Shown here: positions 1 through 46,854 of the stretch, piece by piece | Position numbering within the stretch: position 1 is the stretch's first letter | Layout: each line of letters begins with the position of its first letter | IMG/VR virus record: IMGVR_UViG_3300028498_000028 | Coordinates: 1-46,854 of that record | Direction: 5' to 3' (one strand) | DNA: 46,854 nucleotides | Origin: a virus | The notes under the pieces: model-generated | Told to the model about the DNA's origin: nothing | What the model saw: only the letters and a program-made list of their open reading frames with translations | Databases searched by the model: none | Position numbers and translations under genes: made by a program

Positions 1-53
1 GCACTACACTGGGGGTGTAGTGGTCGCAGGTTCAAATCCTGCCGTTCCGACCA
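1..53 (+). tRNA. tRNA-Pro(GGG), 3' part only
   Basis: The window begins inside a tRNA. Visible parts are the anticodon arm (stem CTACA/TGTAG around the loop CTGGGGG, anticodon GGG with G at position 37, as usual for proline), a short variable loop, a T-arm (GCAGG, TTCAAAT, CCTGC), the acceptor strand CGTTCCG, discriminator A and an encoded CCA. The 5' half lies outside the window, so the isotype rests on the anticodon alone. The T-arm and acceptor end serve as the attachment site for the elements downstream. Confidence 0.9.
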
Positions 54-6486: not shown

Positions 6487-6987
6487 ATGTCGACCACAAT
6501 ATTTACATCAGCTCAGCGCGCAGAACACTGCGTATTATCACTTGAACAATCTGTCTATCACGCTTGCAAAAAAGAGCGCGGCACACTGGGCAAGATTGCT
6601 GATATATATGGCGTTAACTACAACACGCTTGCATTACAAGTGAATCCAAACCGTGGCAGCCACACACTAGCGCCTGAGACGATTGAATTAGTACTCGAAC
6701 ATACCCAGTCGTCATTAATCATGGATGCTATCTGCTGTGCTCACGGCAACGCTGGATGGTTTTTGCTGCCAGATGCTGACAATCAATGTGATGAGATGAT
6801 GGGCATTGCTTTGTTAGGTCAAAAGTTCGCTGACTTAAATAGCACTGCTATTGATGCTTACGCCGACAAGATTATCGAACCTGACGAAAATGCACGTATT
6901 CAAAGAGACTGCCAAGCTTTAATTCGTCATATTCATGGGATCTCGGAAAGTTCCAAACGTAATATGGAGAGACACAATGACAGATAA
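6487..6987 (+). CDS. CII-like regulatory protein
   Basis: A 166-aa protein resembling the phage CII/CP76 regulators: an N-terminal helical domain (SLEQSVYHACKKERGTLGKI), a HTH-like segment (IADIYGVNYNTLALQVNPNR, with the family's L..K/Q.NP signature) and the HTLAPETIELVLEHT helix. It probably activates lysogenic promoters or sets the early-gene programme. The last 11 nt overlap the primase start. Confidence 0.75.
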   Translation: MSTTIFTSAQRAEHCVLSLEQSVYHACKKERGTLGKIADIYGVNYNTLALQVNPNRGSHTLAPETIELVLEHTQSSLIMDAICCAHGNAGWFLLPDADNQCDEMMGIALLGQKFADLNSTAIDAYADKIIEPDENARIQRDCQALIRHIHGISESSKRNMERHNDR

Positions 6988-34831: not shown

Positions 34832-34862
34832 CAGGTTCAAATCCTGCCGTTCCGACCAAACA
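34832..34862 (+). other. shared att site between the two elements
   Basis: Bases 34832-34859 repeat the tRNA end at 27-54, making this attR of element 1. Bases 34842-34862 repeat 46800-46820, making it attL of element 2. No tRNA 5' part is present here, so it does not encode a tRNA. The two repeats overlap but have different limits. Confidence 0.88.
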
Positions 34863-34869
34863 CAATATT

Positions 34870-34902
34870 AGGGCAGACCGTCATTGACCGTCTGCCCTTT
34901 TT
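34870..34902 (+). terminator. terminator just inside element 2
   Basis: The 9-bp stem AGGGCAGAC/GTCTGCCCT with an 11-nt loop is followed by TTTT. It mirrors the arrangement at 67-99 in element 1 and would restore tRNA termination when element 2 alone occupies the site. Confidence 0.85.
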
Positions 34903-34971
34903 CTATGGGCGTTTCAAACGATACGCCCTACATAACAAGCCATCATAAAGCATGGTAATCCATGTCAAAGT

Positions 34972-35022
34972 GCGGTATATTTTACGGTATATTTTATACC
35001 GTCATGGAAATATACCGTCATG
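34972..35022. repeat. left arm-type sites and int2 control region
   Basis: CGGTATATTTTA occurs at 34973-34984 and 34985-34996 in direct tandem. TATACCGTCATG, which contains the reverse complement of CGGTATA, occurs at 34995-35006 and 35011-35022. The last copy includes the integrase start codon. Matching GCGGTATATTTT pairs lie at 46722-46746. Integrase binding here would cover its own promoter or start. Confidence 0.65.
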
Positions 35023-36258
35023 TCATTAACTGATAGCCAAATCAAACGCCTTAAGCCGTCCGATACTTGCACCCCTAGCCGACCTGACAAATATAGTGAT
35101 GGTAATAACCTACGCTTATGGGTGCGTAGTACAGGTAGCAAGGTATGGGTAAGTGACTATAAGTATGCAGCCAAGCGCCAAAGCCTAACCATTGGTAAAT
35201 ATCCAGCAATGAGCCTTGCCGATGCTCGCCAGCGCAACCAACAGATAAAAGACCTGATAAAGCAAGGCATCAACCCTAAGCACGATAAGAAACGCTTGCA
35301 AGCCGACACTGACGGTACAAAGGCATTTGATGCCATAGCAGAACGCTGGCATGACGACCGCAAAGCCCATATCGCCCCTAAGACCTATAGCCGTGATTAC
35401 TCGCAGTACCAGCGCGATATTAAGCCTTTCATTGGTCACATGAACATAGAGGACATAACCGCGCCTGATGTTTTAGCCATTGGTAAAGCTATCGAAACGA
35501 GGGGCGCACCCGATATGGCAAGGCGTGCAATGCGTCAAACAGGGCAGATATTCAAGCAAGCCATACGTGAGGGCTTAGTAACTCATAACCCAGCCAACGA
35601 CCTAACCATAGCCTTAAAACCGCATAAGGTTAAGCATCATAGCCGTGTGACTAGCCAGCAGTTACCTAAACTACTTCAAGACATTGATGCCTATGGTGGT
35701 GATTTACTGGTGAAGCTAGGCTTTTGGTTCTTGTGCTATACGTTCGTGCGGACGCAAGAATTGCGCTTTATGGAATGGAGCGAGATAGACTATCAAGCCA
35801 AAATATGGCGCATACCAGCCGACAAGATGAAAATGGATAGACCGCACCTAGTACCGCTTGCCCCTCAAGTAATGGCAATTTTAGAGCAGATTAAACAGCT
35901 AGGACTTTCGGACAAGTATGTGTTCTTTAATACCACAACCCGTAAGCCATATAGTGAAAACGCATTTATCACTGCCCTATGGCGCATGGGCTATAAAGGG
36001 CGTATGACAGGGCACGGCTTCCGTGGACTTGCCAGCACTACCCTACATGAGCAAGGCGCTATGCACGAAGCTATAGAGCTGCAACTGGCACATGAGAAAG
36101 AGAACAAAGTAAGCAAAGCATACAACGGGGCGCAGCACTTAAAATATAGAACAGACATGATGCACCAGTGGGCAAACTTCATTGATGATGCCTACGCTGG
36201 CAAGATTGATAACGTCATTCACGGTAACTTCAAACAACAAGCACAGAAGCATGGGTAA
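35020..36258 (+). CDS. int: P4-type tyrosine integrase of element 2
   Basis: A 412-aa integrase of the P4/DUF4102 type. Residues 1-95 form the arm-binding domain (LTDSQIKRLKPSD, YSDGNNLRLWVRSTGSKVW, LTIGKYPAMSLADAR). The core-binding domain follows, then the catalytic set Arg244 (FVRTQELR), Lys271, His332 and Arg335 (GHGFRGL), His358 and Tyr368. It inserts element 2 at the tRNA-derived core 160 bp upstream. An ATG at 35004 runs into a stop, so 35020 is the start. It is not closely similar to the integrase of element 1. Confidence 0.94.
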   Translation: MSLTDSQIKRLKPSDTCTPSRPDKYSDGNNLRLWVRSTGSKVWVSDYKYAAKRQSLTIGKYPAMSLADARQRNQQIKDLIKQGINPKHDKKRLQADTDGTKAFDAIAERWHDDRKAHIAPKTYSRDYSQYQRDIKPFIGHMNIEDITAPDVLAIGKAIETRGAPDMARRAMRQTGQIFKQAIREGLVTHNPANDLTIALKPHKVKHHSRVTSQQLPKLLQDIDAYGGDLLVKLGFWFLCYTFVRTQELRFMEWSEIDYQAKIWRIPADKMKMDRPHLVPLAPQVMAILEQIKQLGLSDKYVFFNTTTRKPYSENAFITALWRMGYKGRMTGHGFRGLASTTLHEQGAMHEAIELQLAHEKENKVSKAYNGAQHLKYRTDMMHQWANFIDDAYAGKIDNVIHGNFKQQAQKHG

Positions 36259-36311
36259 CGCCATGTGACAACGACCATGCAAGGCTAGGGGTTGCTCCCG
36301 AACGACAGCTA

Positions 36312-36373
36312 TTCACACCCTTATGCTGTCACTGCCTTGCACCTATTTTGATTTAAGGGTGTAGGGGTGTGAA
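36312..36373. promoter_or_regulatory. inverted/direct repeats before the next gene, possible operator
   Basis: TTCACACCC (36312-36320) is the reverse complement of GGGTGTGAA (36365-36373); a further GGGTGT at 36357-36362 adds a direct repeat. The right copies overlap the ribosome binding site of the gene at 36376, suggesting control of that gene. The evidence is repeat position only. Confidence 0.4.
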
Positions 36374-36375
36374 AT

Positions 36376-37221
36376 ATGTATAATCGTGTCAGAGAAGATG
36401 AGCGAGCCTACAAGCTAATGTATAAAGCTTTTGAACTCAGTTTATCAAGACCTACGAATAGTCAGATTGCAAAAACCATACTACTCGATAATGAGTGTAA
36501 TGAAATTCAGTCTGAAAATAATATTTCTTTTTTGAGTAGGATAAGAGGCGCTATATTTACTTTTCTACAGCGAAATGAACTAGAGTATAAACAACACAAT
36601 AATCTTGAAGATAACACCAAATGTGAATGTGATTATGACTGTGAGTGTTACCTTAATAAATTTATTATGCCAGCTTTTAAAAACCTAGCTCTAAGTTTTG
36701 AGCCTTATATGAACGATGGCTCTTTAGTAAACCACATCTTAGAAGAATATACGGTAGAGGAAAAAGATAGGCTTTTAAGCTGTGACTTAAGAGAAATATT
36801 GAGGTTAATGTTATATAAAGAATTAGCATACTTAGCTTTCAATGAAGGCTTATATGATGTTTCTTGCTGGCATCACGAAGCTACAGTCTTGATGTATGGA
36901 GGTTCAATAGCTGGTGAGCGATTTAACCCATCTGATTATATTGACGAAAGTGAGGTTCTATCGCGTAATTACAGGCGCATTGGAGCGAAAGGAGGTTCAC
37001 AAAAAGGCATTAATTATAGCGAACCGCAGCAAAAAGCATTGAATTATCACGATAAATATCTTAGTGATAAGAATGAAAGGGGTAAGTTTATTTGCTCAAA
37101 TGATAAAGCTGCTAGAGAAATAATAGCTCATTTTGAAGGGAAGTCTGACGGTCTTGGTTATGCAGAACGCTCATTATCTAATATCTTAAGCACCCATCGG
37201 AAGAAGCACTTCAAAGACTAG
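36376..37221 (+). CDS. hypothetical protein of element 2, AT-rich
   Basis: A 281-aa protein. The N-terminal half is helical with a Cys-rich patch (CECDYDCECY) at about residues 87-96. The C-terminal part has a GAKGGSQKG basic loop and a helix-rich end (NDKAAREIIAHFEGKSDGLG, then YAERSLSNILSTHRKKHFKD) that resembles DNA-binding regions of plasmid or satellite regulators. It lies alone between int and alpA and is richer in A+T than its neighbours. Function unknown; a regulatory role is one possibility. Confidence 0.6.
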   Translation: MYNRVREDERAYKLMYKAFELSLSRPTNSQIAKTILLDNECNEIQSENNISFLSRIRGAIFTFLQRNELEYKQHNNLEDNTKCECDYDCECYLNKFIMPAFKNLALSFEPYMNDGSLVNHILEEYTVEEKDRLLSCDLREILRLMLYKELAYLAFNEGLYDVSCWHHEATVLMYGGSIAGERFNPSDYIDESEVLSRNYRRIGAKGGSQKGINYSEPQQKALNYHDKYLSDKNERGKFICSNDKAAREIIAHFEGKSDGLGYAERSLSNILSTHRKKHFKD

Positions 37222-37351
37222 AACACCATTTTACTAGCTAAAATGTCACTTTAGCTGCTCCAATTCTGCAATTAATTCTATACCCCATAAGATGAACCGT
37301 ACAAGACAAGCCATTACATAGTGTAGTGGCACGTAGTACGGAGTCATTGAC

Positions 37352-37648
37352 ATGACACAGCACACCACCACAGATAATCCCGTTATCGCTTTCACTGATG
37401 ACACATCAAACAGCATTGAACAAATAGCCGAAAGCCTACACGTCAAATATTTACCACCGCAAGGCATGAGCCGTGCCAGCCAGCTAATACCATTCTTACC
37501 GTTTGGTAGCAGTACCTTATGGGCATGGTCACGCGATGGACGCTTCCCAGCACCAATCAAGCTATCCCCTACTATGACGGCATGGCGCAATGCTGATGTT
37601 ATCGAGTGGCTGGAAAGTCACACCTCAATCACTAGCGAGGAGGTGTAA
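37352..37648 (+). CDS. alpA: AlpA-family regulator
   Basis: A 98-aa DNA-binding protein. The region LIPFLPFGSSTLWAWSRDGR, then FPAPIKLSPTMTAWRNADVIEWLESH, is the AlpA/MerR-like winged helix. In P4-like satellites and cryptic prophages AlpA activates int or replication genes. It heads a tightly packed operon reaching 42182. GGAG ten bases upstream supports ATG 37352. Confidence 0.88.
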   Translation: MTQHTTTDNPVIAFTDDTSNSIEQIAESLHVKYLPPQGMSRASQLIPFLPFGSSTLWAWSRDGRFPAPIKLSPTMTAWRNADVIEWLESHTSITSEEV

Positions 37649-37651
37649 GCC

Positions 37652-37933
37652 ATGACTACTACAGCAACCGCACCCGTTACCAATGAGCAAGCACCCAAGA
37701 CCCAAATAGAGATTGTTAGAGCGCATCTAATGACAGGCGCAACGATCACCACATGGGACGCTTACCGCTTCTATCAAATTACTTGCCTAGCACAGCGCAT
37801 ACACGATTTGAGAAGTCAGGGCTTAGTCATTCAAAGCGAGATAGTCACCCATAACGACAAGCGTTTTTCGGTTTATTGGCTTGATGAACAAACCTTACTT
37901 GAAAGCGAACTATCTAATAGTGAGGTGAACTAA
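37652..37933 (+). CDS. helix-turn-helix protein (HTH_39 type)
   Basis: A 93-aa protein. KTQIEIVRAHLMTGATITTW, then DAYRFYQITCLAQRIHDLRS and GLVIQSEIVTHNDKRFSVYW make a compact winged-helix of the HTH_39 kind often found beside AlpA in satellites and prophages. It begins 3 nt after alpA and ends directly before the next start. Confidence 0.8.
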   Translation: MTTTATAPVTNEQAPKTQIEIVRAHLMTGATITTWDAYRFYQITCLAQRIHDLRSQGLVIQSEIVTHNDKRFSVYWLDEQTLLESELSNSEVN

Positions 37934-38212
37934 ATGAGCGTAACCGAACAGTTAGAAGTCTTAGAGCCGCGGCTGGTAGCAGTTGATACTTATACGCTAT
38001 GCCATGTGGACGACTACATACAAGACGTATCGAACGATTGTGAAAGCCTTGCTTATGCCTTGAACCTGATAGAAACCAGCGACCCAGCAAGCAAAGGCGT
38101 GATTGTAGCGGTACGTTCTGCACTACTGGCACACAGCGAACACGCCAGCAAAATGAGCGCGGACATCATGGGTAAGCTAATCACACAAGACGAGGTATCA
38201 ATCAATGAGTAA
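37934..38212 (+). CDS. small helical protein, paralogue of next gene
   Basis: A 92-aa acidic, all-helical protein. The centre (DCESLAYALNLIETSDPASKGVI) aligns with the following gene (DTSHLAMALQAVQVECAVSRGVI), including the downstream helix. No family is recognised. Overlap of 8 nt with the next gene implies coupled translation. Confidence 0.6.
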   Translation: MSVTEQLEVLEPRLVAVDTYTLCHVDDYIQDVSNDCESLAYALNLIETSDPASKGVIVAVRSALLAHSEHASKMSADIMGKLITQDEVSINE

Positions 38213-38456
38213 TCAAATATCAGTATCAGCCGACCAGCTAGAAAATATCAATGAGCAAATAGTGCTACTCGATATTGATACCAGTCATCTAGCAATGGCA
38301 TTGCAAGCTGTGCAAGTAGAGTGCGCGGTATCAAGAGGCGTTATTAATACCGTCATAACTGCACTAAGAGCTACGTCAAAGTCACTAGGGGGCATTACTG
38401 ACGAATTAGATTATATGCTTACCACAGCGAAGCAGGAGGTAACAGACCATGAGTGA
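38205..38456 (+). CDS. small helical protein, paralogue of preceding gene
   Basis: An 83-aa acidic helical protein with the same S-x-L-A-x-A-L ... S-[RK]-G-V-I pattern as the gene before it. The pair probably arose by tandem duplication and diverged. They could form a heteromer. No function assigned. It overlaps the next gene by 8 nt. Confidence 0.6.
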   Translation: MSNQISVSADQLENINEQIVLLDIDTSHLAMALQAVQVECAVSRGVINTVITALRATSKSLGGITDELDYMLTTAKQEVTDHE

Positions 38457-38967
38457 TAAGACTAGAACCAATCCAAAGCCCCAGTATGGGGCACAGGCTG
38501 GCAAGCGCGGCTTATTGCTAAGGTTTACTATCTTTATGGCATGGGTGGTAGGTATTGGCTTACTACTCTCACTGGTGACTTGCAAGCCAGCCAGCGCAAA
38601 ACAGATTGCAACCAATGATAACAGCGGTTACTATATAGACCTCTCAAATTCTACAAGCGGACAAGCCAGCCGTGACTTTTTGGCTTTTTTTGTGCCTGAT
38701 AATAGCGCAGCCTCTCAAGCTGTCACTATGCCATCAAGCACTACCCTAAGAGCGCATTTAAGCGCATCAAGGGGGCATTCCCTCATATCTATAGCAAGTC
38801 ACTTGCTAACCGACTATGACGGGTTGACGCTGCAAAATAAAATAGCCGTAAGGCGAATATGCAGGGCGGTTTCTTGTAGAACCGAGAGTAAGACCCGTCA
38901 CCCTATATCTTTACTGTATAGCGTGGCATTAACTCAAAAACTACAAGGAGCTATCCATCATGGGTAA
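38449..38967 (+). CDS. membrane-anchored or exported protein, unknown
   Basis: A 172-aa protein with a positively charged N-terminus and one strong hydrophobic segment at about 22-44 (LLLRFTIFMAWVVGIGLLLS), followed by CKPASA, which could be a signal peptidase I site. The remaining 120 residues (NNSGYY, RGHSLISIASHLLTDYDGLT, paired Cys in ICRAVSCRT) would then lie outside the cytoplasm. An exported protein inside a replication operon is unexpected. The ribosome binding site AGGAGGT is strong. Confidence 0.6.
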   Translation: MSDKTRTNPKPQYGAQAGKRGLLLRFTIFMAWVVGIGLLLSLVTCKPASAKQIATNDNSGYYIDLSNSTSGQASRDFLAFFVPDNSAASQAVTMPSSTTLRAHLSASRGHSLISIASHLLTDYDGLTLQNKIAVRRICRAVSCRTESKTRHPISLLYSVALTQKLQGAIHHG

Positions 38968-39568
38968 TTCAATCCGCACGACCTCAAACACTCAAAACAC
39001 CCCTACACTAGCCACATTCAAAGCTGGTGACAGTGTTCTATGCCCATCATTAAGCTTTACCTCGTTTGTACTGACAGCCGACCCATACGGCAAGCGTGAC
39101 CTATTGGCACTTACTCACGATGGCAGCAACATCTACTACGATGATAAAGGTTACTTTGTGCCGTCATGCGACAAAGAAACAGGCGATTATCAGCCGTCAT
39201 TATTCCAAGACACGCCAGCCAACCGCCAAGCAGTTGCAACCCTATATAACGGTAAGTTTACTGTTCAAGCCAATCAGCGCACAGTGATAGACACCACCGA
39301 AGCAGATGACAATATAGTCGTCACTATGTCGTCACATGGTTTATCACACATTACTAGCGACATTTACGGGGCAGCCAATGCCTTACATGATGTTGGTTAT
39401 CTGCTAGGGCTTATTTACTACGGCAAGATAGAGGGGGAAGCCGTCAAGTCTATGGCACGTTTGGCACATGACGCTACTAATACATGGGAGGACATACTCC
39501 GCACTCAACTAGACATCATTAACGAACCCCTAGCAATGACTGGTTACAGCAAGGTAGGTGCAGAATGA
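38960..39568 (+). CDS. hypothetical protein of the replication operon
   Basis: A 202-aa acidic protein. The N-terminal half is beta-rich (FKAGDSVLCPSLSFTSFVLT, RDLLALTHDGSNIYYDDKGY). The second half has helices (ITSDIYGAANALHDVGYLLG). It overlaps both neighbours by a few bases (ATGA at its 3' end). No family is recognised. Confidence 0.6.
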   Translation: MGNSIRTTSNTQNTPTLATFKAGDSVLCPSLSFTSFVLTADPYGKRDLLALTHDGSNIYYDDKGYFVPSCDKETGDYQPSLFQDTPANRQAVATLYNGKFTVQANQRTVIDTTEADDNIVVTMSSHGLSHITSDIYGAANALHDVGYLLGLIYYGKIEGEAVKSMARLAHDATNTWEDILRTQLDIINEPLAMTGYSKVGAE

Positions 39569-39678
39569 AAACCTACCCACCAAAGCAAAGCCGTAAGCAC
39601 GCCAAGCGCAAAAGCTACTACAAGAAGTATCAAGCCAAGCGTAAGCCGAACCAGTCACAAGCAAGGGGGAACAGATGA
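39565..39678 (+). CDS. 37-aa very basic protein
   Basis: A tiny frame MKTYPPKQSRKHAKRKSYYK followed by KYQAKRKPNQSQARGNR: 14 of 37 residues are Lys or Arg. Its ATG overlaps the upstream stop (ATGA at 39565) and its stop overlaps the primase start (ATGA at 39675). The exact double overlap supports translation. Nucleic acid or RNA binding is likely from charge; the function is unknown. Confidence 0.6.
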   Translation: MKTYPPKQSRKHAKRKSYYKKYQAKRKPNQSQARGNR

Positions 39679-42182
39679 CCACCACACCACAAACAGCCGC
39701 CCATGAAAAAGCCCGTGCGTTTAGCACAGGCTTTACAGTGGTAATGAATAGTTTTGATGCAGTCACACGGCAAGGACTGGCAGACGATAAGCTATTGCTT
39801 AAACTATATGACCTACTACCGCCTAATAGCTTGCTCAACGTCACCGACAATCTTACTACAAATGATGACAAAGTAGTACCGACCACTGGCACGATAGCCC
39901 TAAGATTGACCGATAAACAAGGCGATATTGTAGGCGCGGTATTCTACACACCAAACAGCAAAGCAAAGCCCATTGTCATTGACCCTACAGGGTATGGCGC
40001 TATCGTCATTGGTGACACTAACAAAGGCAGTGAGGTGATAGCGTTTGATGACTTAGAGAACGGCATAGATGCTTATGCGTGCCTGATGGCAAGTGATAAG
40101 AATATTATTGTTAGCCCTCAAAAGACAAACCAGCACCTTAAAAAGATGGTGCAGCATTGGAGCGCCGCCGCGCCCGTTACCGTGCCTATGACACTTGATA
40201 ACAAGGGCTTAATAAACTCATTGGCAGGTGTGAAAGCTCAAGCACTGGTTACCGTAGCTGATATGGTCACGATGCTACAAGATGATAGTTATCAGGCAAT
40301 ACTGGCAGCTGATGACACCCAGCTAATCAATTTACAAGATACTGCCTACTATCCCGAATGGCGCGATGACCCACAGCTTAACGCGCCTATGATGCATGAT
40401 GACGGACGTTTTGAGCTATACCATGATGGGCTGTTCTTTGTGAAATATAACGATGACGACCCAGCAAACATAACCTTTAAGTTTAAGGCGTTTGTTTGTT
40501 CACCGATTGAGGTTATCGCTAAGACTAGGGACACAAGCAGCGGTACATGGGGGCGGTTACTGCAATGGCGTGATGATGACAGCGAGCTACACACATGGTC
40601 AATGCCACTTGCTTTATTACAAGGTGATGCCCGTGAGTATCGTAGAGAGCTAGCCAGTCAAGGATTGAGCATTACCACCAATGGCAAACAGCGCAGCTAC
40701 TTAGACACCTATATTCAAGACTACCCCATTCACAAACGGGCATTATGTGTTGATAAGCTAGGCTGGCATGGTGAGCAATATATATTACCTGATGGTGCAA
40801 TAGGCAGCGATGGCAAGCAGTTAATAGTTTATCAGTCTGCCCATGCAATCAATAGCACCATAGCCCAGCAAGGCACACTAGAACAATGGCGTGATGAATT
40901 ATGCAAGAAACTTGCCGAACAGAGCCGTTTTGTTTTCTCTATTGCTTGCGCGTTTGCTGGTCAATTACTGGAATTACTCGATGATGACGGTGGTGGTTTT
41001 CATATCGTAGGTTCATCAACTATGGGTAAATCATTATCACTAAAAGTAGCAGCTAGTGTATGGGGCAAGCCTGACAGCTATACTAAAACATGGCGCAGTA
41101 CTGATAACGCCTTAGAGGGCACAGCAAGCGAGCATAACGACAGCTTTTTACCGCTTGATGAAATCAGTGAGGGCGACCCTAAAGTAGTTGGTAAAGTCGT
41201 TTACATGCTGGCTAATGGTCAAGGAAAAGGGAGGAGTACCACCACGGGGCACAATCGCATAGCCAAAAAGTGGCGCATTATCTTCCTATCTAATGGCGAA
41301 AAAACCATACAGCAAGAAATGGCAGTAACAGGACAGAAAACCAATGCAGGTATAGAGGTTCGGATAGCACATATTGATGCTGATGCTGGGGCTGGTAATG
41401 ACTTAAGGACGTTTGATAGTTTGGTACTGGCAGAAACAGGCGCAGAACAAGCCGATAAAATCAAAGACCTATATTATAGATACTATGGTGTGGCTGGCAT
41501 GGCATGGTTAGAACATATCACTACTGATAAAACAGCAACCACAGCCACCGCCAAGCAGCTTGTCAGTGACTTTATGAGCCAATATACAGACCTTGCACCA
41601 CAAGCGCATAGAGTAGCTAGAAGGTTCGCTATTGTGGCTGCTGCTGGTGAAATGGCAACAGGTGCAGACATAACAGGCTGGCAAGCAGGACAAGCAACCA
41701 CAGCCGTTATGACATGCTTAGATAATTGGCTTGATAACTATGGGCGTGATGGTGAGCATGAGCAGCGCCAAATCATAGACCATATCAAAGCATTTATTGA
41801 ACAACATGGAGCAAGTCGCTTTCAGCCTTGTTATAGAAGCACGCGCTTAGACTTTGAGGAAAGAACCCCTAACCGTGTAGGCTATCGAAATATGGACACG
41901 GGGGATTATTATTTTTCTAAAGAAACTTTTGATAGCGTCTGTGCGCCTTTTAGCAAAAAGAAAGTCTTACAAGTATTAGAGGAAGCCGACTTGTTACTAC
42001 TCAATCAAGGTGACCGTAAAATCTACAAAGCGCCTGATACTTTATTTAGTGGCAAGCAACGCCCGTCTGTTTACGCGGTTACTGCTGATATACTTTGTTG
42101 TGAACCTACTAAAACGACTGGGACAGACGGGACGGACGGGACAGGCTATATGCAGCAAGGGGTTACGCTGTCCCATTGCTAA
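39675..42182 (+). CDS. DUF927-type primase/helicase of element 2
   Basis: An 835-aa replication protein. The centre matches the DUF927 helicase fold of P4-like satellites and plasmids: KLGWHGEQYILPDGAIGS, Walker A GSSTMGKS (446-453), Walker-B-like FLPLDEISEG at about 491-500 and ANGQGKGRSTTTG. The N-terminal 300 residues form a primase-like or toprim-like region (VIDPTGYGAIVIGD; ENGIDAYACLMASDKNIIV). The last 20 residues (TTGTDGTDGTG) are encoded by the iteron array. It should start replication at the adjoining repeats. Confidence 0.88.
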   Translation: MTTTPQTAAHEKARAFSTGFTVVMNSFDAVTRQGLADDKLLLKLYDLLPPNSLLNVTDNLTTNDDKVVPTTGTIALRLTDKQGDIVGAVFYTPNSKAKPIVIDPTGYGAIVIGDTNKGSEVIAFDDLENGIDAYACLMASDKNIIVSPQKTNQHLKKMVQHWSAAAPVTVPMTLDNKGLINSLAGVKAQALVTVADMVTMLQDDSYQAILAADDTQLINLQDTAYYPEWRDDPQLNAPMMHDDGRFELYHDGLFFVKYNDDDPANITFKFKAFVCSPIEVIAKTRDTSSGTWGRLLQWRDDDSELHTWSMPLALLQGDAREYRRELASQGLSITTNGKQRSYLDTYIQDYPIHKRALCVDKLGWHGEQYILPDGAIGSDGKQLIVYQSAHAINSTIAQQGTLEQWRDELCKKLAEQSRFVFSIACAFAGQLLELLDDDGGGFHIVGSSTMGKSLSLKVAASVWGKPDSYTKTWRSTDNALEGTASEHNDSFLPLDEISEGDPKVVGKVVYMLANGQGKGRSTTTGHNRIAKKWRIIFLSNGEKTIQQEMAVTGQKTNAGIEVRIAHIDADAGAGNDLRTFDSLVLAETGAEQADKIKDLYYRYYGVAGMAWLEHITTDKTATTATAKQLVSDFMSQYTDLAPQAHRVARRFAIVAAAGEMATGADITGWQAGQATTAVMTCLDNWLDNYGRDGEHEQRQIIDHIKAFIEQHGASRFQPCYRSTRLDFEERTPNRVGYRNMDTGDYYFSKETFDSVCAPFSKKKVLQVLEEADLLLLNQGDRKIYKAPDTLFSGKQRPSVYAVTADILCCEPTKTTGTDGTDGTGYMQQGVTLSHC

Positions 42183-42317
42183 AAACCGTAACGGGACGAA
42201 CGGGACAGGATTTTACGTTTTAGCCTTTCTGTCCCGTCTGTCCCATTGCTAAAAACGATAACGGGACGGCTGTAAGCCATACCACGTAAGGGCTGTCCCG
42301 TCTGTCCCGCTTGTCCC
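42120..42317. repeat. GGGAC/GTCCC iteron array, candidate origin of element 2
   Basis: Twelve boxes occur: GGGAC at 42120, 42129, 42138, 42193, 42202, 42263; GTCCC at 42170, 42231, 42240, 42295, 42304, 42313. Within each cluster the spacing is exactly 9 bp. A larger direct repeat (GTCCCATTGCTAAAAAC) begins at 42170 and 42240. The array starts in the primase gene and ends 135 bp after it. Iterons next to a P4-type primase are the expected origin signature. Confidence 0.75.
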
Positions 42318-42340
42318 ATGCAAAAACATAAGGTACAGAA

Positions 42341-42362
42341 AAAATAATCAAAGGTAGGCGTT
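42341..42362. repeat. 22-bp direct repeat, left copy of cargo module
   Basis: It is identical to 46201-46222 (begins AAAATAATCAAAGG). The two copies enclose the regulator and restriction-modification genes. Confidence 0.85.
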
Positions 42363-42380
42363 TATCGTCCGCCTTTTTTT
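42351..42380 (+). terminator. terminator after the iterons
   Basis: AAGGTAGGCG pairs with CGTCCGCCTT (one mismatch, two wobbles) and is followed by TTTTT. The first arm and 12 bases before it recur at 46201-46222. Confidence 0.65.
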
Positions 42381-42493
42381 ATGGCTGATACTTTCCTTTT
42401 TATAGTAGTAGGCTAAAGCCAATAGCCCAAAACCCGACAAAATATAACTGTATTGTTGTATTATGAGGGCATATAAAAACCGAGGTTTAATCT

Positions 42494-42793
42494 ATGACGC
42501 ATTTTAGCGCACTAAATGATTATGTAGCAGACTTGCCAGCCGATAGACAACAAGCGATCAATAATAAATCTAAAATATTAAGCCAGTCTATTGAGCTTGC
42601 CAAAATACGCAAAAGCAAACAGCTAAAGCAGACTGAGCTTGCCGTCATTATGGGTGTGTCACAAGCCAGCATATCAAAGGTAGAAAGCGGTAAAGACATT
42701 CAGCTATCGACTTTGCAAAACTATGTTAGAGCGTTAGGTGGTGAGGTAAGCATTATCGCTAAGATGCCAAACAGTGACGTTATATTGATATAG
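42494..42793 (+). CDS. XRE-type regulator, antitoxin-like
   Basis: A 99-aa DNA-binding protein. The HTH spans about residues 38-75 (KQLKQTELAVIMGVSQASIS), followed by KVESGKDIQLSTLQNYVRAL and GGEVSIIA. This ending (STL..YVRALGGE) is typical of HigA-like antitoxins. No toxin gene adjoins; the restriction-modification gene begins 97 bp downstream. It may act as the controller that delays restriction. A promoter-like AT-rich stretch precedes the gene. Confidence 0.8.
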   Translation: MTHFSALNDYVADLPADRQQAINNKSKILSQSIELAKIRKSKQLKQTELAVIMGVSQASISKVESGKDIQLSTLQNYVRALGGEVSIIAKMPNSDVILI

Positions 42794-42890
42794 CACCCTC
42801 ACCCTATAGGCGAACCCTCACAACTTTCATACCTTATTTTAAATTTTATAATCCAGCCCATTTATTAATCAATACCAATTAGGGATATCT

Positions 42891-45800
42891 ATGTCAGATA
42901 GCAATCATCAATACGTTAGCGATTACGTCAATAAAGTAGCCTCAAGAGTTAAGTTAGGTCATAGCTCAGAACATACTTTCCGTAAAGATTTAGAGGATTT
43001 GATAAACAATCTAGTGCCTGATGTGATGGTCACCAACGAACCAAGCCAAGTAACCGATTGTGGCAACCCTGACTTTTTGATTAGTAAAGATAATATCCCT
43101 ATTGGTTTTATTGAGGCTAAAGATGTTGGCAAGGACTTAAGCTCTAAGCTCTATAAAGAACAGTTTGATCGCTATAAAGCCGCGCTTGATAACTTGATAA
43201 TTACCGATTACACGGTATTTGAATTTTACGAGTATGGCGAGCTTAAAAAGACCATTCGTTTGGCTTATATATCAGAAAACAATACAAACTATGAAAGCTC
43301 CTTAGTAGGTAATGAATATTGTGAAGAAAACTACGAAACCTTTGCTGAGACACTAGAGAAGTTTTGTGGCTACAAAGGTCAGACCATCAAGTCTGCCCAG
43401 CGCCTTGCAGTTATGATGGCAGGTAAAGCTCGACTACTTGAAAATACGCTTTATCACGCATTGACCAGTGATGAGAAGTCAGATGAAAATTCAGACCTAC
43501 GTGACCAATTTGAAACCTTTAAGGCTGTACTCATCCATGACCTAACACCAGCAGACTTTGCTGATATTTATGCACAAACGCTAGCTTATGGTATGTTTGC
43601 CGCACGTTTGCATGATGACACCTTAGACACTTTTAGTCGTCAAGAGGCGGCTGAGCTTATCCCTAAGACCAATCCATTCTTAAGAAAACTATTCTCTCAC
43701 GTGGCTGGTATTGATATTGACGACCGTATAAAAACCACGGTAGATAACTTAGCGGAAGTTTTTAGAGCCACCGATGTAGCGGCTATCCTTCAGAATTTCG
43801 GTAAAACAACCCAAACACAAGACCCTATTATTCACTTTTACGAGACCTTTCTAGCGGAGTACAACCCAAAACTCCGCAAGCAACGTGGCGTATGGTACAC
43901 CCCTGAGCCAGTGGTTAAGTTTATTGTCCGCGCTGTAGATGATATTTTGAAGTCTGAGTTTGATTTAGCAGACGGTATAGCAGATACCAGTAAGATAGAA
44001 ATAGAAAAACAGACACAAACCCCTGATAGTCGTACTAAGACGGGCTATAAGATGGTTAAAGAGTTGGTACATAAGGTGCAAATTCTTGATCCAGCGACTG
44101 GTACAGGGACATTCCTTGCCGCCATTATTCAGCATATCTTTCACAGTCAGTTTGAGAATATGGGCGGCATTTGGAGTAGCTATGTTGAGCAAGACCTATT
44201 GCCACGCTTGCACGGTTTTGAGCTATTGATGGCAAGCTATGCAATGGCGCACTTAAAGCTTGATATGCTACTTGCTGATACAGGCTATGAGCCTATTAAG
44301 CCTAAACGTATGCAGGTCTATCTGACCAACTCACTAGAAGAACATAATCCCGATACAGGAACGCTATTCGCTGGCTGGCTGTCTGCTGAGGCAAATGAGG
44401 CTAACGCCATTAAGCGTGACGCGCCAGTGATGGTAGTAATCGGTAATCCACCTTATGCGGTGAGTAGCACGAATAAAGGCGAGTGGATTCAGGGTTTAGT
44501 AGCGGATTATAAAAAAGGCTTAAATGAGCGAAATATCCAACCTTTATCAGACGATTACATTAAATTCATCCGTTATGGTCAGCATTATATCGAGAAGAAT
44601 GGCGAAGGTATCTTAGCTTTTATCACTAATAATAGTTTTGTCGATGGCGTTATTCATCGTCAAATGCGTAAGAGCTTATTAGAGAGTTTTGATAAAATTT
44701 ACGTTTTAGATTTACATGGTAACGCTAGAACATTAGAAACTACGTTAGATGGTGGGAAAGACGAAAATGTTTTCGATATTATGGCAGGTGTTTCAATTAA
44801 TATTTTTATCAAAACTAATAAAAAACAGAAAAGTAGTTCAAGTAGAGTTTTTACTTATGACCTATTAGGTAAAAGAGACTATAAATATAAAACCCTTGAT
44901 AAATCAAGCATAGATAACCTTAATTGGACTGAAATAAAAGCTCAAGAACCTGAATATTTCTTTAGCAAGCAAAACTTTGAACTAAAAGATATTTACCTGA
45001 AAGGATTGCAGATTAGTAAACTTTTCAACTCTCATGCAAGTGGTATTAAATCAGAAAGAGATCATTTAATAGCAAGTTTCGATAAAGATGATTTATTAAA
45101 TATATTAAAAGACTCCAGTTTTTTAACTGTAGAAGAATTTAGACAAAAGCATACTCCAAAAAAAGATGGCAGAGACTGGAAAGTAAAAACTGCAATTGAA
45201 GATTTACAAACTAACAGCCCAGCAATAGTCAGATTCAACTATAGACCATTCGATCATAGATACACTTTTTACACAGGAAAAACTAAGGGTTTTATGGCTT
45301 ATCCTAGAGACGAGGTTAACAAAAATATAGTTTTGAAAGACAACTTATTACTTCTTTCTTGTCGTCAGCAATCTACATTTGATTTTCAGCATGTTTTTAT
45401 TTCTAAACTTATTTCTGATATGTGTTCCGTTTCCTTACAAACCAAGGAAACTGGTTATACGTTTCCTCTTTATATTTATACAAACCCAGAGCAAGACAAC
45501 CAAACCAATCTATTAGAAGCAAATAACCAAGACACGCCCGCCGATACCGCAAAAAGAGTGCCAAATCTTGACCCCAAAATCATAGCAGACATTGCTAAAG
45601 CCATTGGCTTAACCTTTACCAATGAAAAGGAAGATACGGCTGGCACGTTTGCACCGATAGATATTCTTGATTATATCTATGCCGTATTGCACAGCCCGAC
45701 ATATCGTGAGACCTATAAAGATTTTTTAAAGATAGACTTCCCACGTGTGCCCTATCCCAGCGATGCCGATACTTTTTGGCAGTTAGTCGCGCTTGGTAGC

Positions 45801-46178
45801 GAGTTACGTCAAATTCACTTATTAGAGTCACCAAAGCTTGCCGCACAAACTAAAGCGCTTGGTATAGGTTATCCAGTAGGAGGTGATAATGCCGTTACTC
45901 GTAAAATGACCAAGACCAGCGTTGGCTTTGAGCCTGACGAAGTAGATAGCAGCATTGGTAAAGTTTGGCTTAACGATACTCAGTATTTTACTAATGTGCC
46001 ACTTGTGGCATGGGAGTTTTATATCGGTGGTTATCAGCCAGCGCAAAAGTGGCTCAAAGATCGTCAAGGTCGAACGCTTGATATAAGTGATGTTAGGCAT
46101 TATATGAACATTATCGCAGCGCTGAGCCTAACCCATGAGCTGATGCAGCAGATTGATAATATCAAACTGGTGGGCTAA
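42891..46178 (+). CDS. single-chain restriction-modification enzyme (type IIG/ISP-like)
   Basis: A 1095-aa enzyme. The N-terminus has a PD-(D/E)xK nuclease (Asp61 in NPDFLI, Glu75 and Lys77 in GFIEAK). The middle carries an N6-adenine methylase: motif I DPATGTGT at 400-407 and motif IV NPPY at 519-522. The part from about 590 to 863 is AT-rich and probably the target-recognition domain; a conserved C-terminus follows. No SF2 helicase motifs are visible, unlike the roughly 1,570-residue LlaGI-type ISP enzymes. It would methylate host DNA and cut unmodified phage DNA. Confidence 0.85.
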   Translation: MSDSNHQYVSDYVNKVASRVKLGHSSEHTFRKDLEDLINNLVPDVMVTNEPSQVTDCGNPDFLISKDNIPIGFIEAKDVGKDLSSKLYKEQFDRYKAALDNLIITDYTVFEFYEYGELKKTIRLAYISENNTNYESSLVGNEYCEENYETFAETLEKFCGYKGQTIKSAQRLAVMMAGKARLLENTLYHALTSDEKSDENSDLRDQFETFKAVLIHDLTPADFADIYAQTLAYGMFAARLHDDTLDTFSRQEAAELIPKTNPFLRKLFSHVAGIDIDDRIKTTVDNLAEVFRATDVAAILQNFGKTTQTQDPIIHFYETFLAEYNPKLRKQRGVWYTPEPVVKFIVRAVDDILKSEFDLADGIADTSKIEIEKQTQTPDSRTKTGYKMVKELVHKVQILDPATGTGTFLAAIIQHIFHSQFENMGGIWSSYVEQDLLPRLHGFELLMASYAMAHLKLDMLLADTGYEPIKPKRMQVYLTNSLEEHNPDTGTLFAGWLSAEANEANAIKRDAPVMVVIGNPPYAVSSTNKGEWIQGLVADYKKGLNERNIQPLSDDYIKFIRYGQHYIEKNGEGILAFITNNSFVDGVIHRQMRKSLLESFDKIYVLDLHGNARTLETTLDGGKDENVFDIMAGVSINIFIKTNKKQKSSSSRVFTYDLLGKRDYKYKTLDKSSIDNLNWTEIKAQEPEYFFSKQNFELKDIYLKGLQISKLFNSHASGIKSERDHLIASFDKDDLLNILKDSSFLTVEEFRQKHTPKKDGRDWKVKTAIEDLQTNSPAIVRFNYRPFDHRYTFYTGKTKGFMAYPRDEVNKNIVLKDNLLLLSCRQQSTFDFQHVFISKLISDMCSVSLQTKETGYTFPLYIYTNPEQDNQTNLLEANNQDTPADTAKRVPNLDPKIIADIAKAIGLTFTNEKEDTAGTFAPIDILDYIYAVLHSPTYRETYKDFLKIDFPRVPYPSDADTFWQLVALGSELRQIHLLESPKLAAQTKALGIGYPVGGDNAVTRKMTKTSVGFEPDEVDSSIGKVWLNDTQYFTNVPLVAWEFYIGGYQPAQKWLKDRQGRTLDISDVRHYMNIIAALSLTHELMQQIDNIKLVG

Positions 46179-46200
46179 GTCCGCATAATCACATTAAGAC

Positions 46201-46222
46201 AAAATAATCAAAGGTAGGCGTT
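46201..46222. repeat. 22-bp direct repeat, right copy of cargo module
   Basis: Identical to 42341-42362. Similarity continues imperfectly for about 18 bases (GCGTCTGCCTTTTTG here, TCGTCCGCCTTTTTT there). Confidence 0.85.
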
Positions 46223-46238
46223 AAGCGTCTGCCTTTTT
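46211..46238 (+). terminator. terminator after the restriction-modification gene
   Basis: A 10-bp stem AAGGTAGGCG/CGTCTGCCTT (two wobbles) with the loop TTAAG is followed by TTTG. It is closely related to the terminator at 42351. Confidence 0.78.
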
Positions 46239-46720
46239 GTTTTGCCTGATTAACAGGCAGAAGGGGCGTATTAATACCACTCTTAAAGTATAAATATGAC
46301 GCACCAAGAGCGTTTAGCAAAACAACCCCATGAAAGAAAGTTGCAAGTCGATTTTAGTATCAACAAATCACTGTAATATATTTAAGAGGCTGGCATGATT
46401 GCCAATGGCTCGAATTGAATAAGACCCCATACGCAATAAAACGCATTATAAACGCAGCTATAAATTGCCTATATTTTGATAATCACAATCAGCAATGCAC
46501 GTTCTTTGCACCTATTTTGCACGGCTCAAAATGCTATTAATCACGCGCGTGCAGTGATTAGCAATTTAACCCCATGCAAACAAAGTGCAAGTATAAAAAA
46601 GTACGCCTAAGTTGCTGGCATGTTGATAATAATGATGACTTTAATAACCATAACCTATCGTCTGTTATCTTTACTTTTTACAGCTAAATGAGGGCTAAAA
46701 GCTAAGTGACTTTTGCATAA
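46239..46720. other. noncoding right end of element 2
   Basis: About 480 AT-rich bases with no supported gene. Notable are two TTTGCAC copies 11 bp apart (46505-46511, 46516-46522) and nearby GTGCAA words in the other orientation, which look like weak arm-type repeats of another integrase. No tRNA or terminator was seen beyond 46238. Confidence 0.5.
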
Positions 46721-46721
46721 T

Positions 46722-46746
46722 GCGGTATATTTTGCGGTATATTTTA
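46722..46746. repeat. right arm-type sites of element 2
   Basis: GCGGTATATTTT occurs at 46722-46733 and 46734-46745 in exact tandem. The same 12-mer starts the left set at 34972. It lies about 55 bp inside the terminal core repeat. Confidence 0.7.
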
Positions 46747-46799
46747 TTTTAATAAAACCTAAAACCTTTAATACCAATGCTTGCAGCCAATACTTTACT

Positions 46800-46820
46800 T
46801 CCTGCCGTTCCGACCAAACA
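46800..46820 (+). other. attR of element 2
   Basis: These 21 bases equal 34842-34862. They contain the acceptor end of tRNA-Pro plus five bases beyond its CCA. What follows (46821 on) is presumably chromosome. Confidence 0.85.
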
Positions 46821-46854
46821 TAGTAGTAAAGAGAAAAGCCAATCATTGTTTTCA

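Follow-up and report, generated by a model that had tools for sequence, protein, structure and literature searches.

The locus described here bears on how satellites and phages can exchange defense genes at a single site and yet stay functional. The window analyzed is a stretch of 46,854 nucleotides, positions 1 to 46,854 of virus record IMGVR_UViG_3300028498_000028, in which a regulator gene and a restriction-modification gene lie between two copies of an identical 22-bp sequence. In the first-pass annotation, this arrangement was taken for an exchangeable cargo slot in a satellite, entered by recombination between terminator copies. Our comparison with related elements makes it likely that the stretch between the two terminators, T1 and T2, is an exchangeable defense cassette occupying a fixed slot, with joints formed by terminator recombination.

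The attachment core CCTGCCGTTCCGACCA looks like part of a tRNA gene, of which only the 3' end is present, and occurs in three exact copies in the window, where 0.01 were expected; therefore, the window consists of a prophage and a satellite-like element in tandem (Table 1). Scans for tRNAs and Rfam families found nothing. The prophage part carries an integrase (352-1497), a terminase, and a repressor, and the satellite-like element (34843-46816, 12 kb) is tRNA-integrated at the same att sequence. The middle att copy is common to both, and it is possible that they constitute a helper-satellite pair using one site. Of the genes typical of phage satellites, an integrase, an AlpA-like regulator, and a DUF927 primase are present, which makes the element a putative satellite. 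No match to structural or capsid genes, nor to psu, sid, or delta, was obtained among the satellite proteins scanned with Pfam or PHROGs, which included part of the small genes. The 27-bp repeat found at both ends of the element is probably an integrase arm site. Between the integrase and AlpA genes, the gene at 36376-37221 differs among elements (also in L003, L005, L007, and L063) and is preceded by a conserved leader at about 36278-36378; this position is possibly a second variable slot. At the right end of the prophage, the noncoding stretch 34548-34689 matches Acinetobacter phage AbIPP1 at 89-90%, just past its endolysin gene, and Psychrobacter phage Psymv2, at its attP end, at 80%.

Table 1. 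Features of the prophage-satellite window, in window coordinates.
Feature	Position	Strand	Basis or remark
att core copy 1	38..53	+	prophage left end
att core copy 2	34843..34858	+	prophage/satellite junction; L003 homology begins at 34832
Satellite tyrosine integrase	35020..36258	+	Pfam Arm-DNA-bind_3, Phage_int_M, Phage_integrase; 99% to L003
AlpA-like regulator	37352..37648	+	Pfam Phage_AlpA 2.7e-7
DUF927 primase/helicase, conserved left anchor of slot	39675..42182	+	Pfam DUF927 5.7e-90; PHROG DNA primase 1.4e-87
TGTCCC/GGGACA repeat cluster, primase 3' end and UTR	42110..42320		repeat families D2, D3, D5, I5, I9-I11
T1, terminator copy 1	42337..42385	+	22-mer 42341-42362, stem about 42350-42376
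Operator/promoter-like sequence TATAACTGTATTGTTGTATTAT	42443..42464	+	five cassettes aligned with two antitoxin/TA loci; conserved
99-aa HTH protein	42494..42793	+	Pfam HTH_3/HTH_37
Type IIG restriction-modification enzyme, 1095 aa	42891..46178	+	PADLOC REase_MTase_IIG E=0, 1101 bits; Pfam Type_ISP_C, N6_Mtase
T2, terminator copy 2	46197..46245	+	22-mer 46201-46222, perfect stem 46210-46236
Satellite right end, L003 type	46246..46800		46197-46399 86%, 46495-46854 96% to L003
27-bp repeat	46721..46747	+	second copy 34971-34997
att core copy 3	46801..46816	+	satellite right end

Nine relative loci were taken from the genome collection, all of them from Psychrobacter. A search of that genus detected relatives of the primase, many of which are distant, in 44 of 105 genomes; the genomes compared mostly represent one per species. 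Neither the primase nor the 22-mer had a match in the viral contigs searched, and the plasmid records searched had none either; the matches in the phage records searched were confined to the prophage end region. Downstream of the relatives' primases the cluster of TGTCCC/GGGACA repeats is kept, and these repeats probably act as replication iterons. After the primase, L053 and L054 have repeats of the TTGGAACC type and L055 has repeats of the TGGAAGC type instead of TGTCCC/GGGACA, as if the origin repeats co-varied with the primase in the window, L053, L054, and L055.

The frame itself corresponds to its earlier description. The 22-mer AAAATAATCAAAGGTAGGCGTT is present in exact copies at both ends of the cargo, each inside a 49-nucleotide direct repeat whose two copies are 86% identical and both fold as a hairpin followed by a T run. 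This repeat is the top direct repeat within 38000-46854, a region in which the chance expectation for exact 22-mer repeats is about 2e-6. The hairpin of T2 (-20.6 kcal/mol, z -6.4, perfect 12-bp stem) is stronger than that of T1 (-13.0 kcal/mol, z -3.7, one stem mismatch), and a generic terminator scan found T2 and missed T1. Many close relatives carry one such terminator directly 3' of the primase, with scores of 55-69 on a 40-position weight matrix built with 13 of the close relatives' terminators; the T2 of the window and the copies of L063, which were excluded from the training set, scored 61.5, 59.7, and 50.4. Private variants are common to both copies within L007, where the loop is one base shorter, and the variant GGCAGCCG is common to both copies within L043 and L083; in the window and in L063, no private variants are shared by both copies of one element. 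The shared variants are suggestive of duplication of the recipient terminator or of later conversion. The repeat was also considered as an att-like site of the integrase, which was not supported, since the terminator resembles neither the att core nor the arm repeat.

Between the terminators of the window are the genes of a 99-aa HTH protein and a 1095-aa Type IIG enzyme. The enzyme gene is apparently intact, with nuclease and N6-methyltransferase predicted in one chain and the motifs PD...EAK, DPATGTG, and NPPY present. Outside these cassettes, a relative of the HTH protein is encoded 3' of a Gp49-family toxin gene in L099, and probably also in L098, and an operator-like sequence similar to that of the cassettes lies upstream at the L099 toxin-antitoxin locus. 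This conserved sequence suggests a candidate cassette promoter upstream of the regulator. Because the window has no toxin gene before the HTH gene, the 99-aa protein is best read as a lone HigA-type antitoxin that would have been retained as regulator of the restriction gene. Thus, of the cargo first annotated as a regulator plus a restriction-modification enzyme, the enzyme stands, and the regulator is a lone relative of HigA-type antitoxins rather than a dedicated restriction-modification controller.

The clearest view of the joints comes from the element of P. piscatorii (L003), which is the sister of the window's element on the primase tree (support 99) and has a single terminator, no cargo, and then the right end. 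Both have the same left and right sequence, and the window has 3860 bp and a second terminator in between. Positions 41901-42389 align to L003 12224-12712 (91%) and positions 46197-46399 to L003 12660-12861 (86%), so that the two matches overlap by one terminator; between the terminators, a windowed comparison of the two elements is near chance. The 154 bp before T1 are 92% identical to L003, and the 100 bp after it are 80% identical to L063 and at chance level to L003. The 100 bp before T2 are 68% identical to L063 and at chance level to L003, the 100 bp after it are 84% identical to L003 and at chance level to L063, and T2 itself matches both at 92-95%. Since the cassette is L063/L078-like up to T2 and the sequence is L003-like from T2 onward, the joints map to the terminators, and the boundary at the repeats that the first-pass annotation had called for is found in the switches between L003-like and L063-like sequence at T1 and T2. 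The window and L007 are continuous across T1 into the HTH gene, and thus the T1 joint may predate the window's element.

The other outcomes anticipated for an exchangeable slot, a single repeat copy where cargo is absent and other genes between the same repeats, were both encountered. A single copy without cargo is present in L003, L044, L045, L052, L057, and L059, and other genes are found between the repeats in L007, L079, L083, and L043. L007, with two terminators, has the same HTH gene followed by a methyltransferase, a ResIII/T5orf172 protein, and an Eco57I protein; L079, a different satellite with two terminators, has the HTH gene, an MmeI-type enzyme, a helicase, and a T5orf172 protein; and in L043 and L083 the two terminators enclose a RelE/HigB-type toxin-antitoxin pair. 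The same pair is found in L005 and L046, where the right-hand hairpin is different (GTGTACG...), which indicates that some joints can do without the shared 22-mer. The right end of L005 and L046 is common to the empty elements L044, L045, and L059, and that of L043 and L083 to the empty L052 and L057; one toxin-antitoxin cassette is therefore linked, at a hairpin, to either of two right-end types. The HTH and IIG cassette of the window recurs in two elements that carry a different primase of 705-707 aa, namely L063, where it has terminators, and L078, where the terminators have decayed. In these two elements a three-gene block (297, 278, and 167 aa) lies between the primase and the terminator slot (L063 6509-8793, coordinates of its reverse complement; L078 8029-10313, minus strand). 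Mapped onto the primase tree, 13 elements show six or more changes of cargo, and 15 elements show six or more changes of right-end type; L004, L048, L056, and L062 were omitted from the cargo classification. L010 has one terminator copy and an HTH remnant, with no second copy. In L068, IIG remnants at 12-77 and 6624-6777 flank the MmeI-type system, and the same stretch is found in L079; it seems from these remnants that the MmeI-type system replaced an IIG system within the slot, so that at least one exchange would have taken place inside the cargo, away from the terminators.

The joints at both terminators, the different cargos, the empty sites, and the mixed right ends establish an exchange slot, as was first proposed; sequence comparison demonstrates the slot, its boundaries, its alternative cargos, its empty state in some elements, and the recurrence of one cassette in other backbones. 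The window and L003 by themselves are compatible with either insertion or repeat-mediated loss. It is possible, but unlikely, that cargo was ancestral between two terminators and that deletions spanning from one direct repeat to the other produced L003 and other empty elements. In the terminator of L003, the left half matches T1 and the right half T2, as a pop-out would leave, although on four informative sites, and the decaying cargo or terminators of L010 and L078 also fit loss. However, loss alone cannot yield the same cassette in different backbones, nor different cassettes and right ends among close relatives. In another reading, the terminator would simply be part of the primase unit, and everything rightward of it would be replaced through long flanking homology or illegitimate joining, with selection removing the joints that hit the primase. 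Most elements do keep the first terminator together with the primase, and long homology is available on the left; we nevertheless consider this reading quite improbable, since it leaves unexplained both the second terminator copy and the point, precisely at T2, where the window stops resembling L063 and begins to resemble L003.

The nature of the hairpins admits further readings. That they are a common terminator of the genus, coinciding with the cargo by chance, has practically nothing to recommend it and is rejected: similar hairpins do occur elsewhere, and isolated 15-mers with one mismatch are found in many Psychrobacter genomes, but the 33-nucleotide core (at most three mismatches) is confined to 20 of the 105 Psychrobacter genomes, where it almost always lies within this kind of element, and is absent from the other Moraxellaceae genomes sampled. 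Moreover, the window copies score 61-65 on the weight matrix versus a maximum of 13.6 in ten shuffles of 493 kb (4.9 Mb). The anatomy of a gene-plus-hairpin unit sitting at a hairpin resembles an integron cassette, and hairpins of differing sequence still mark joints; yet it is very unlikely that the hairpins are dedicated sites for a recombinase, as attC is in integrons, given that the one integrase found in the satellite, the only recombinase identified there, is of the phage type, and that the terminator differs from the att core and arm repeat. We likewise give little credence to the idea that a satellite or helper-phage protein promotes joining at folded terminators, as an integron-like loader that would need a hairpin and not a fixed sequence.

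For the exchangeable slot, the following course of events would account for the observations. The slot lies directly after the terminator of the primase operon and before the right attachment end, and each cassette would end in its own terminator. Once a satellite shares a cell with a second satellite or with another source, the cassette terminator would meet that of the recipient to form the joint, so that a filled slot would have two copies and an empty one a single copy. The simplest and most likely cause of the joints would be homologous or annealing recombination over roughly 40-80 bp of terminator and UTR homology. Of the proposed entry by recombination between terminator copies, the location of the joints at terminators is thus borne out, and recombination itself is the best inference. 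The hairpin would separate satellite transcription from cargo transcription, and joints at terminators would be tolerated because transcription is kept apart in this way, which may be the selective reason for their position.

Elements of the P2/P4 type have established defense hotspots (2022, PMC9122126). In Escherichia coli their slots adjoin cos, and the mechanism of exchange was left open, with cos ends and homologous recombination suggested and experiments said to be needed (PMC9122126). Like these hotspots, the Psychrobacter slot is small, fixed beside a conserved gene, and filled with interchangeable defense systems; beside the primase, its contents have a high turnover (none, toxin-antitoxin, IIG, MmeI-type, and ResIII/Eco57I). 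In contrast to the E. coli slots near cos, it lies between the primase and the right att, with joints at terminators. Overall, it is similar to the known satellite defense hotspots, and its joint is unusually clear. It is also similar to phage morons and other accessory loci, as the cargo is a unit with its own terminator that is absent at the same point in relatives (L003), but in Psychrobacter a single slot accommodates several different units and is flanked by two copies of one terminator. Integron cassettes, too, consist of a gene and then a hairpin and are inserted at a hairpin; however, the one integrase found in the satellite is of the phage type, with an Arm-DNA-binding domain, and none of the integron type was identified; by their sequence, the Psychrobacter hairpins resemble intrinsic terminators. 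Mobile regulatory cassettes in T4-type phages were reportedly described by Arbiol et al. in 2010. In T4-type phages, conserved regulatory signals, terminators included, have been proposed as homology for gene exchange by "semilegitimate" recombination (PMC4177764). The use of short conserved intergenic signals, including terminators, as exchange homology is the shared feature, but those are large virulent phages, and each Psychrobacter satellite-like element has one or two copies. In the open-access literature, we found no paper describing terminator-framed cargo in satellites, nor one combining Psychrobacter with phage satellites.

In several elements with unrelated cargos, the joints can be located within tens of bases, at terminators. 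This suggests one route by which satellites may trade antiviral cargo, and it predicts that exchange would depend on terminator homology. It also offers a way to search for new defense cargo, by finding the terminator after the primase and reading what comes next.
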